A stretch of DNA of 21,472 bases from a virus: positions 1 through 21,472 of the IMG/VR virus record IMGVR_UViG_3300015206_000011; one strand, 5' to 3'. Both the position numbers and the translations under genes were made by a program. The notes beneath the pieces are model-generated. The model saw only the letters and a program-made list of their open reading frames with translations, was not told the origin of the DNA and made no database searches. Numbering within the stretch: the stretch's first letter is position 1; each line of letters begins with the position of its first letter. Shown piece by piece: positions 6,628 through 14,243 of this stretch.

Positions 6628-7644
6628 TTACTGAACGATGTTGGAGAAGTAATAACCGAGATCAGTACCCACGGCCTGCATGTCGAAGGCCATTTCGCCC
6701 TCGGTACGGACCGTCTCAAGACCCAACCAGGGAAGCGGGATCTGTGCGACGCGCACGCCCATGGTGTTGAGGCCCGTGAGACCCGACCATGCGAACGTGT
6801 AGCCGGCCGTCGGGATCATGATGCCGGGCTCCGGCGCGCGGTGACACAGCAGTGCGTTCTTGCCGGCAATGAAAGCATAGGTGCCGGACGAACCCGTCGT
6901 ATCGGTCGCACTTTCCGTGGCGCTGTTGAACACCGCCTTGGAGACCTTGACGCGATCGACGTCGAAGGCCGCCGCCAGCAACTCCGGCGTGATCTTGTTG
7001 GCATCGGCGCGGGTCGTGTATTTGATGCGATCGACCACCAGCGGATGTTTCCGCAAGGCCTGATAGACCGGATAGGTCTGCAGGAACATGTTGGCCTCAA
7101 AGCCCGTGTTCTGCAGGACCGTGGTCTGCCCCGTGGCGATATCGGTGAAGGGATCACCGTTGGCGTCGTCATTCCAGAATGCAGGCGTCGTGGTGCCCGG
7201 CGTGCCTCCGGCGGTTCCGACGTTGTCGATGCCCCACAGACCGGTCTTCAGATACTGCGTGGCGAAGAACCGGTCTTTGCGGATCAGCATCTTCTGCATC
7301 ACGAACTTGGTGCAGGCGATGTCCATATTGACAGCGGGGTCGGCGTTGCGGCGGGTCTGGCCGCCGAGATCCTTGTGGTAGGCCCACACGTCAGCCGAAT
7401 AGCTGTTGTTCGAATTCAGGTTGAAGCCGCCGCCGGCGGACTCCGTCGCATCCGAGCGCAGCTGCGCTTCGTCGCGATAGAAGTCGTCCTTCGAGAAAGC
7501 GAAATACTTGTCGCTCTGGAATTCGACCGGAACGATCGGAAACACGTCGTCGGCGACGTAGTTCTTCTCGCTCTGGATGTAGGCGGTCGCAATTTGGGTT
7601 AGCGCGGCCTGAACATGGACCTGCTGGACTGTCGGTTGGGGAAT
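6628..7644 (-). CDS. Major capsid protein, apparent ATT start
   Basis: A 338-residue protein from ATT at 7644 (read as Met). The N-terminus after the start is PQPTVQQVHVQAALTQIATA, then AYIQSEKNYVADDVFPIVPVEFQSDKYFAF. This arrangement, a short N-arm, a conserved FPIVPV-type segment, then mixed alpha/beta domains with a Gly/Thr-rich loop around residues 150-170, matches major capsid proteins of HK97-like phages. It follows protease, scaffold and decoration genes, as expected. No ATG, GTG or TTG exists in frame between the stop at 7654-7656 and a GTG at 7545. Starting at that GTG would delete the conserved N-arm and has no ribosome site. AGGAGG lies exactly five bases before ATT. Coat identity is well supported; the start codon is the unusual part. 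Confidence 0.88.
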   Translation of the reverse strand: MPQPTVQQVHVQAALTQIATAYIQSEKNYVADDVFPIVPVEFQSDKYFAFSKDDFYRDEAQLRSDATESAGGGFNLNSNNSYSADVWAYHKDLGGQTRRNADPAVNMDIACTKFVMQKMLIRKDRFFATQYLKTGLWGIDNVGTAGGTPGTTTPAFWNDDANGDPFTDIATGQTTVLQNTGFEANMFLQTYPVYQALRKHPLVVDRIKYTTRADANKITPELLAAAFDVDRVKVSKAVFNSATESATDTTGSSGTYAFIAGKNALLCHRAPEPGIMIPTAGYTFAWSGLTGLNTMGVRVAQIPLPWLGLETVRTEGEMAFDMQAVGTDLGYYFSNIVQ

Positions 7645-7655
7645 CGTAGCCTCCT
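7642..7655 (-). promoter_or_regulatory. Perfect AGGAGG ribosome site before an ATT start
   Basis: Read on the minus strand: AGGAGG, spacer CTACG, then ATT CCC CAA CCG. The Shine-Dalgarno match is the strongest I saw in the window and the five-base spacer is near optimal for ATT. The ACG in the spacer is only two bases from AGGAGG, too close to serve. An in-frame TAG overlaps the AGGAGG, so translation cannot enter from further upstream. Confidence 0.75.
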
Positions 7656-7715
7656 ATTTCTAGGCCTGAGCGCTTTGGCCGCGGCGAGGATATGGACGCT
7701 CGTTTAAAAACCCGA

Positions 7716-7750
7716 TCGCTTTCTCAGGGAGGTCCGTCCTGAGAAAGCGA
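7716..7750 (-). other. 13-bp perfect hairpin in the capsid gene leader
   Basis: TCGCTTTCTCAGG, a nine-base loop, then the exact complement. Read on the minus strand the stem is followed, five bases later, by TTTTTAAA, so it could act as a weak terminator after the decoration gene. It also lies about 60 bases before the capsid ribosome site and could be a 5' stabilising or processing hairpin. I cannot separate these roles by sequence alone. Confidence 0.55.
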
Positions 7751-7767
7751 GTTTATTGACTGACGCT

Positions 7768-8181
7768 TTAGACGGCCGCCGTCGCACCCGACGGAATAAG
7801 GGCGACCGTGATGATCTGGTTCGCGGCTGCCGCAGCCTCGATCGCGCGGCCAACAACCGCGCCGCTAGTGAAGGTCACCACTCGACCGGCGTTATCGGAC
7901 TGCAGGAGCGCGCCAGCGGCGATCGCAGCGCCGGCGACCGCTTTCGACGGACCGAGAATGCCGACGTCGGCCGGCTGACCCAACGGCGGGGTGTTCTGCA
8001 GGATGCCGTAGACGTCGCCGCCAGCCGAGGTTTGAACAGTGACGACGCGCGTCGCGCTGATAAAGACGCAGAGGAATTGACCGGAGCCGCCGGGACCGTC
8101 CAGCGCGGAAGCTGGGTTAAAATAGTTCGCAGCAGCTACACACTGGCTGCCATCGTGTAGGAGCGGGCCTTCGGTTGCCAT
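7768..8181 (-). CDS. Capsid decoration / head stabilising protein (DUF2190-like)
   Basis: A 137-residue protein, all beta-rich with Ala/Gly turns. The C-terminal half (GAAIAAGALLQSDNAGRVVTFTSGAVVGRAIEAAAAANQIITVALIP) has the pattern typical of DUF2190-like capsid decoration proteins: AGGAIxAG-AL, a VVGxAxEAA, and a final hydrophobic strand. Such proteins sit on the outside of the capsid at threefold positions and stabilise it after expansion. Ribosome site GGAGG lies six bases before the ATG. The gene lies between the scaffold and the major capsid gene, as in many phages. Family assignment by pattern; confident on structural role. Confidence 0.82.
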   Translation of the reverse strand: MATEGPLLHDGSQCVAAANYFNPASALDGPGGSGQFLCVFISATRVVTVQTSAGGDVYGILQNTPPLGQPADVGILGPSKAVAGAAIAAGALLQSDNAGRVVTFTSGAVVGRAIEAAAAANQIITVALIPSGATAAV

Positions 8182-14107: not shown

Positions 14108-14155
14108 AGTTGGGATTCCAAAGGATTCCGAATGGACTCAATCTCGCCAGAAAAC

Positions 14156-14184
14156 GCCGCTCGTCTCTTTCAAGCACGAGCGGC
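14156..14184 (-). terminator. Second minus-strand hairpin terminator candidate
   Basis: Nine-bp perfect stem (GCCGCTCGT and ACGAGCGGC on the minus strand) around an 11-base loop, followed by GTTTTCTGG. The short U-run makes it a weaker intrinsic terminator than the one at 14249-14273. It lies about 50 bases upstream of the small-terminase start. Confidence 0.55.
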
Positions 14185-14243
14185 AGTTGAGGGAGGAAAC
14201 GCCCAAGGAGGGCAGCGACTGATCGAAAGCAGTCCCTATAAAC

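Follow-up and report, generated by a model that had tools for sequence, protein, structure and literature searches.

Initiation from all 64 codons is said to have been obtained by Hecht et al. in 2017. Among natural genes, infC starts with AUU in Escherichia coli, AUC in Streptomyces and AUA in Staphylococcus aureus (PMC5472188, PMC13009471). With AUU or AUA, one base pair to the initiator tRNA is lost, and IF3 discriminates against these codons in known cases (PMC5472188). In S. aureus, AUU and AUA starts with an extended Shine-Dalgarno sequence (SD) gave roughly 10% of an AUG reporter, and ccpN reached up to 30% in rich medium; the authors hold that extended SDs help the recognition of weak codons (PMC13009471). 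Across prokaryotes, GUG and UUG starts have stronger SDs (Belinky et al. 2017, PMC5622118), although the same source gives the difference in SD conservation between start codons as not significant in alphaproteobacteria, the likely hosts here.

Like infC, the phage major head protein gene described here has an apparent start codon of the AUN class against which IF3 discriminates. infC, however, is autoregulated by its own product, whereas the phage gene encodes a virion protein and its codon is not conserved in near relatives. Like cvfC1 (AUU) and ccpN (AUA) of S. aureus, it has an odd start behind an unusually strong SD, but those genes are cellular and keep the odd codon in relatives (PMC13009471), while ours encodes a structural virion protein and has a fast-changing codon. 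pcnB of E. coli also has an AUU start limiting translation, as stated in a reference title in PMC13009471; it encodes a cellular enzyme kept low, in contrast to a major head protein. The coupling of a weaker start codon to a stronger SD resembles the GUG/UUG rule of Belinky et al. 2017, which concerns cellular genomes and leaves out AUU and similar codons (PMC5622118). AUU and AUA starts, their sensitivity to IF3 and strong SDs are already known, and what appears new is their recurrent use for a phage major head protein; within open-licence PMC papers we found no report of AUU or AUA as the start of a capsid gene in a phage.

The window, by which we mean the whole 21,472-nucleotide stretch of viral DNA analysed (IMGVR_UViG_3300015206_000011), carries the gene on its minus strand (Table 1). 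Read on that strand, the order is TAG, AGGAGG, CTACG, ATT and then PQPTVQQVHVQA. No ATG, GTG or TTG occurs in the capsid frame between the TAG and the GTG, which lies 33 codons inside the frame opened by the ATT. The earlier note had placed the TAG, the AGGAGG, the five-base spacer and the ATT exactly to the base, and the frame reading likewise bears out its statement that no canonical start stands in that stretch.

Table 1. Features at and around the start of the major head protein gene in the window.
Feature	Position	Strand	Basis
ATT, apparent start codon of the major head protein gene	7642..7644	-	direct reading and aligned relatives
AGGAGG, perfect Shine-Dalgarno core, 5 bases before the ATT	7650..7655	-	
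Spacer CTACG	7645..7649	-	direct reading
In-frame TAG, four codons upstream of the ATT, closing the frame and overlapping the first bases of AGGAGG	7654..7656	-	
Major head protein gene, 338 codons and stop, phrog_1005	6628..7644	-	
GTG, first canonical in-frame start triplet, within the conserved arm, without SD	7543..7545	-	
Cement/decoration gene upstream (Phage_cement_2), ordinary ATG start, served as control	7768..8181	-	
Strong hairpin, terminator- or attenuator-like, followed by a T-rich tail, in the gap that separates the capsid gene from the cement gene	7716..7750	-	

The product is a major head protein, matching phrog_1005 (E 3.3e-70) with residues 5-337 aligned to profile positions 6-314 of 315. 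Because the match spans these residues, the N-terminal arm belongs to the phrog_1005 family; the earlier note had called the arm conserved. One solved relative found by sequence, 3bjq (E 1e-16), is aligned only from profile position 22 and is therefore uninformative on the arm. The gene stands in a head-gene cluster with a large terminase, a Mu-type portal, an XkdF-type protease and the cement protein. The loop of the hairpin listed in Table 1 contains ACCTCC.

AGGAGG-N5-ATT occurs once in the window against 0.06 expected on both strands, while the hexamer alone is not rare (5 against 7.9 expected). The 22 bases upstream could be read for 29 of the 30 predicted window genes, and AGGAGG stands there in the capsid gene alone. 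Five bases separate AGGAGG from the start in the window and likewise in four related loci (L005, L006, L024 and L027).

To collect relatives, viral contigs and GTDB genomes were scanned by homology, which gave 260 loci with a tblastn capsid match, the window included; pattern scans gave nine loci beyond these. After removal of 92 duplicates (identical from -30 to +150), 38 loci without the N-terminal motif and nine without the N-terminus, 130 distinct N-termini remained, 127 from homology (with the window) and three from patterns. Starts without an in-frame upstream alternative were ATG in 95 of the 127 homology rows, GTG in 6, TTG in 5, ATT in 5 and ATA in 1. The remaining 15 have a canonical start upstream in frame and carry ATG (5), TTG (2), GTG (1), AAG (3), AAA (2), TAT (1) or ACG (1) at the aligned position. 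That position is thus ATG, GTG, TTG, ATT or ATA in 120 of 127 rows, eight of these having a further canonical start upstream. In the ACG row (L359, 4998-5000), the codon stands behind TAGGTAGGTG; an in-frame GTG lies 16 codons upstream, so initiation at the ACG is only possible. A canonical start was within reach in all 38 homology rows without the N-terminal motif.

In the homology sample, ATT is found in the window, L005, L207, L397 and L432, and ATA in L200; the three pattern rows (L314, L318 and L320) all have ATT. ATT or ATA capsids thus number nine distinct sequences (ATT eight, ATA one), from various datasets and one metagenome-assembled genome (MAG). At the conserved start position there is an AUN codon, with no in-frame canonical start ahead of the conserved part. 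Among the DNA patterns, six of the 19 stretches hit by the ATT pattern proved to be capsid starts (L314, L315, L316, L318, L320 and L325), as did two of the 26 hit by the ATA pattern (L409 and L419, both identical in sequence to L200), and none of the 119 stretches found with a loose pattern had a capsid match. A tblastn search with the L314 capsid retrieved only relatives below 60% identity. As for named phages, the annotated capsid starts in 10 of 138 matching records checked were ATG in nine and GTG in one, and there was no DNA-level match to the start region in that collection. A comparison of the start codon among related phages had been proposed in the earlier note; the codon changes repeatedly among ATG, GTG, TTG, ATT and ATA.

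The codons right behind the ATT change mainly at synonymous positions. Within codons 2-33, synonymous against other changes were 11 vs 4 between the window and L002, 12 vs 2 with L005 and 13 vs 5 with L006; they were 8 vs 0 for L005/L003, 15 vs 1 for L207/L200, 10 vs 2 for L207/L204 and 15 vs 5 for L314/L320. The pattern is much like that of codons 34-65, and by this measure the arm directly behind the ATT is under amino-acid constraint. All six odd codons of the homology sample are AUN, as expected if the initiator tRNA reads them. Canonical triplets do occur in frame downstream of some odd starts (GTG at 8 codons in L005, L207 and L320 and at 10 in L200, ATG at 16 codons in L432 and L318), and these could be used, but the SD is wrongly placed for them or absent. 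Taken from the sequences, the capsid protein very probably begins at the ATT.

The start codon is coupled to the strength of the SD. AGGAGG was found within 22 bases before the start in 15 of 20 non-ATG rows vs 5 of 95 ATG rows (Fisher p 8e-11, without correction for kinship). In the 65-row clade holding the window, AGGAGG precedes 13 of the 17 non-ATG starts but just one of the 48 ATG starts, and ATG accounts for only one of the 14 AGGAGG rows of that clade. The predicted pairing with the 16S tail averaged -8.2 kcal/mol for ATG, -11.0 for GTG, -11.2 for TTG and -10.6 for ATT/ATA. A perfect SD is not obligatory, since AGGAGG is absent in three of the nine ATT/ATA loci (L397, L432 and L314).

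On a capsid tree of 115 rows, built by a quick method with the first 12 residues left out and with SH-aLRT support only, at least eight changes between ATT/ATA and the rest and at least 11 between ATG and the rest are needed. A likelihood test of correlated evolution on this quick tree gave LR 36.2 (p 2.7e-7, 115 rows), and LR 31.4 (p 2.6e-6) in the 65-row clade; the order of codon and SD events is left unsettled because several fitted rates touch their bounds. In a conservative pair test of low power, with six independent pairs on starred branches, the SD went the same way in 4.3 and the opposite way in 0.0, a result short of significance (median p 0.125).

Near pairs show the same exchange at short distance: L003 (ATG) and L005 (ATT) are 97% identical, L002 (ATG) and the window (ATT) 89%, and further pairs are L204 (GTG) with L200 (ATA) and L211 (ATG) with L213 (TTG). 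L002 is the closest relative of the window, and its ATG stands behind a weaker site. One nine-row subclade has no ATG at all (GTG in L027, L199, L203, L204, L212 and L330, TTG in L209, ATT in L207, ATA in L200). One option offered in the earlier note was that ATG had recently turned into ATT and that a perfect ribosome site made up for the loss. Compensation is well supported by L002 and by the association on the tree, but a single such event does not agree with at least eight changes.

Two types of leader were seen within one clade, TTGATGGAGCC before ATG (L009, L020, L345, L349 and others) and AAATAGGAGGYT before weak starts (the window, L200, L202, L204, L209 and L213). L003 and L005 are alike as far as the leader and diverge from there, as if an initiation cassette had been exchanged.

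Both features are restricted to the capsid gene. In these loci, starts were also aligned for the orthologues of 12 further genes of the window, and AGGAGG was found within 20 bases in none of 191. Three of these starts, from few and weak matches, had no canonical codon near the extrapolated position (CCT, ACT and TTA), and none was AUN. The cement gene starts with ATG in 55 of 64 loci and with TTG in one, its start lying upstream in seven and just inside in one. Among 150 capsid starts, with the window excluded and near-duplicates counted, 28 have AGGAGG and eight lack any canonical codon, all eight being ATT or ATA. A host-wide habit of AUU starts or strong SDs is not a likely cause, because the other genes show neither.

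We think it probable, from these comparisons, that the ATT is a real start, that the strong SD compensates for it and that the strength of initiation is under selection. Of the three bases of AUU, the first two would pair with the initiator tRNA, while a near-perfect SD five bases upstream would retain the 30S subunit long enough to initiate. Across the phage group, the capsid start codon has shifted repeatedly and the SD with it, a weak SD accompanying ATG and a strong SD the weaker codons. The likeliest cause would be compensation, with selection keeping the total strength of initiation roughly constant. Two steps here are inferred: initiation at AUU, and selection on expression level as the force behind the pairing of codon and SD. 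The near-absence of ATG with AGGAGG in the clade favours selection for a set level over drift, and it suggests that excess initiation may also be avoided. Read in this way, the phage capsid gene would extend the rule of weak codon and strong SD to AUU and AUA.

A misreading of ATG as ATT in sequencing or assembly might be considered since the window is a single metagenomic contig, but ATT in eight distinct capsids and ATA in one, from separate datasets and one MAG, together with the identical assembly of the ATA sequence from two datasets (contigs L200 and L257), make it extremely improbable; errors would also need a preference for AGGAGG loci. Very unlikely, too, is another site of initiation, be it the downstream GTG or one further upstream that would involve frameshifting or coupling to a leader peptide. 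The position of the GTG 33 codons in and the TAG within the SD would allow such a start, but the mainly synonymous changes from codon 2 on speak against it, as do the lack of an SD before that GTG and of a common leader ORF ending at the upstream stop in 13 strong-SD loci. Masking of the site by structure was looked at in predicted folds from -45 to +45, and no common hairpin was found in 9 ATT/ATA, 11 GTG/TTG and 94 ATG rows; the start codon was on average unpaired at 0.64, 0.50 and 0.44, and the SD region at 0.38, 0.47 and 0.50, respectively.

The start codon might hardly matter behind a perfect SD and so drift neutrally, as the rapid exchange of ATT, ATA, GTG and TTG among strong-SD rows would allow. 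Drift alone, however, predicts that ATG is common with AGGAGG, as it is not in the clade, and AUU and AUA cost about tenfold where measured in the cited work, a strong SD notwithstanding (PMC13009471); we consider neutrality unlikely. Also improbable in our view is a regulated start, in line with the IF3-sensitive control among the options of the earlier note. AUU or AUA would then be kept because IF3 discriminates against them, and capsid synthesis would be restrained or would respond to the IF3-to-ribosome ratio during infection, as in infC. The AUN class of all odd codons, the subclade without ATG and the single ATG with AGGAGG in 65 clade rows, a hint that the strongest combination is avoided, would fit it, and sigR (GTC) and infC are precedents (PMC5472188). 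But GTG and TTG replace ATT and ATA among near relatives, as in L204 and L200, and ATT gives way to ATG between L005 and L003; a regulatory codon should be kept, and the odd codon is not kept among close relatives, though L314 and L320 share ATT. More doubtful still is a selected switch made of a near-perfect SD and a codon that IF3 rejects, in which capsid mRNA would bind ribosomes strongly and fire only once the IF3-to-ribosome ratio drops late in infection; a single base would then decide when the virion's most abundant protein is made. The deliberate rate limit raised in the earlier note is compatible with the rarity of ATG behind a strong site (one of 65 clade rows) and may apply.

Under the favoured reading, compensation of a weak codon by a strong SD, the group offers a natural repeated experiment on SD strength against start codon in a gene that needs high expression. 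The near pairs L003/L005, L002/window and L204/L200 make the trade-off testable. Gene callers limited to ATG, GTG and TTG would shorten the capsid proteins of this kind by 8 to 33 residues; in the window such a caller would begin at the downstream GTG and lose 33.

The phage carrying this ATT capsid start is of soil type, and several of its relatives have AUU or AUA too. L432 comes from a MAG labelled Asaia bogorensis (Acetobacteraceae), while L433 and L434 come from MAGs assigned to Acetobacteraceae and Elstera, respectively. Upstream of what is likely the small terminase gene, at 14142-14220 on the minus strand, the window also has a match to the suhB/mmgR small RNA (RF00519; 45.9 bits, gathering threshold 41), an alphaproteobacterial RNA family. 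The MAG labels, subject to errors of binning, and this match point to alphaproteobacterial hosts. The match has CCUCC in the loop and in the linker. Nine of 50 related virus records, many of them fragments, have suhB/mmgR at E 0.001, three of them over the cut-off. A phage-borne small RNA against the SD was rejected as the cause of the ATT, eight of the nine records having an ATG capsid start. The phage-borne copy of what appears to be a host regulatory RNA merits a separate look.
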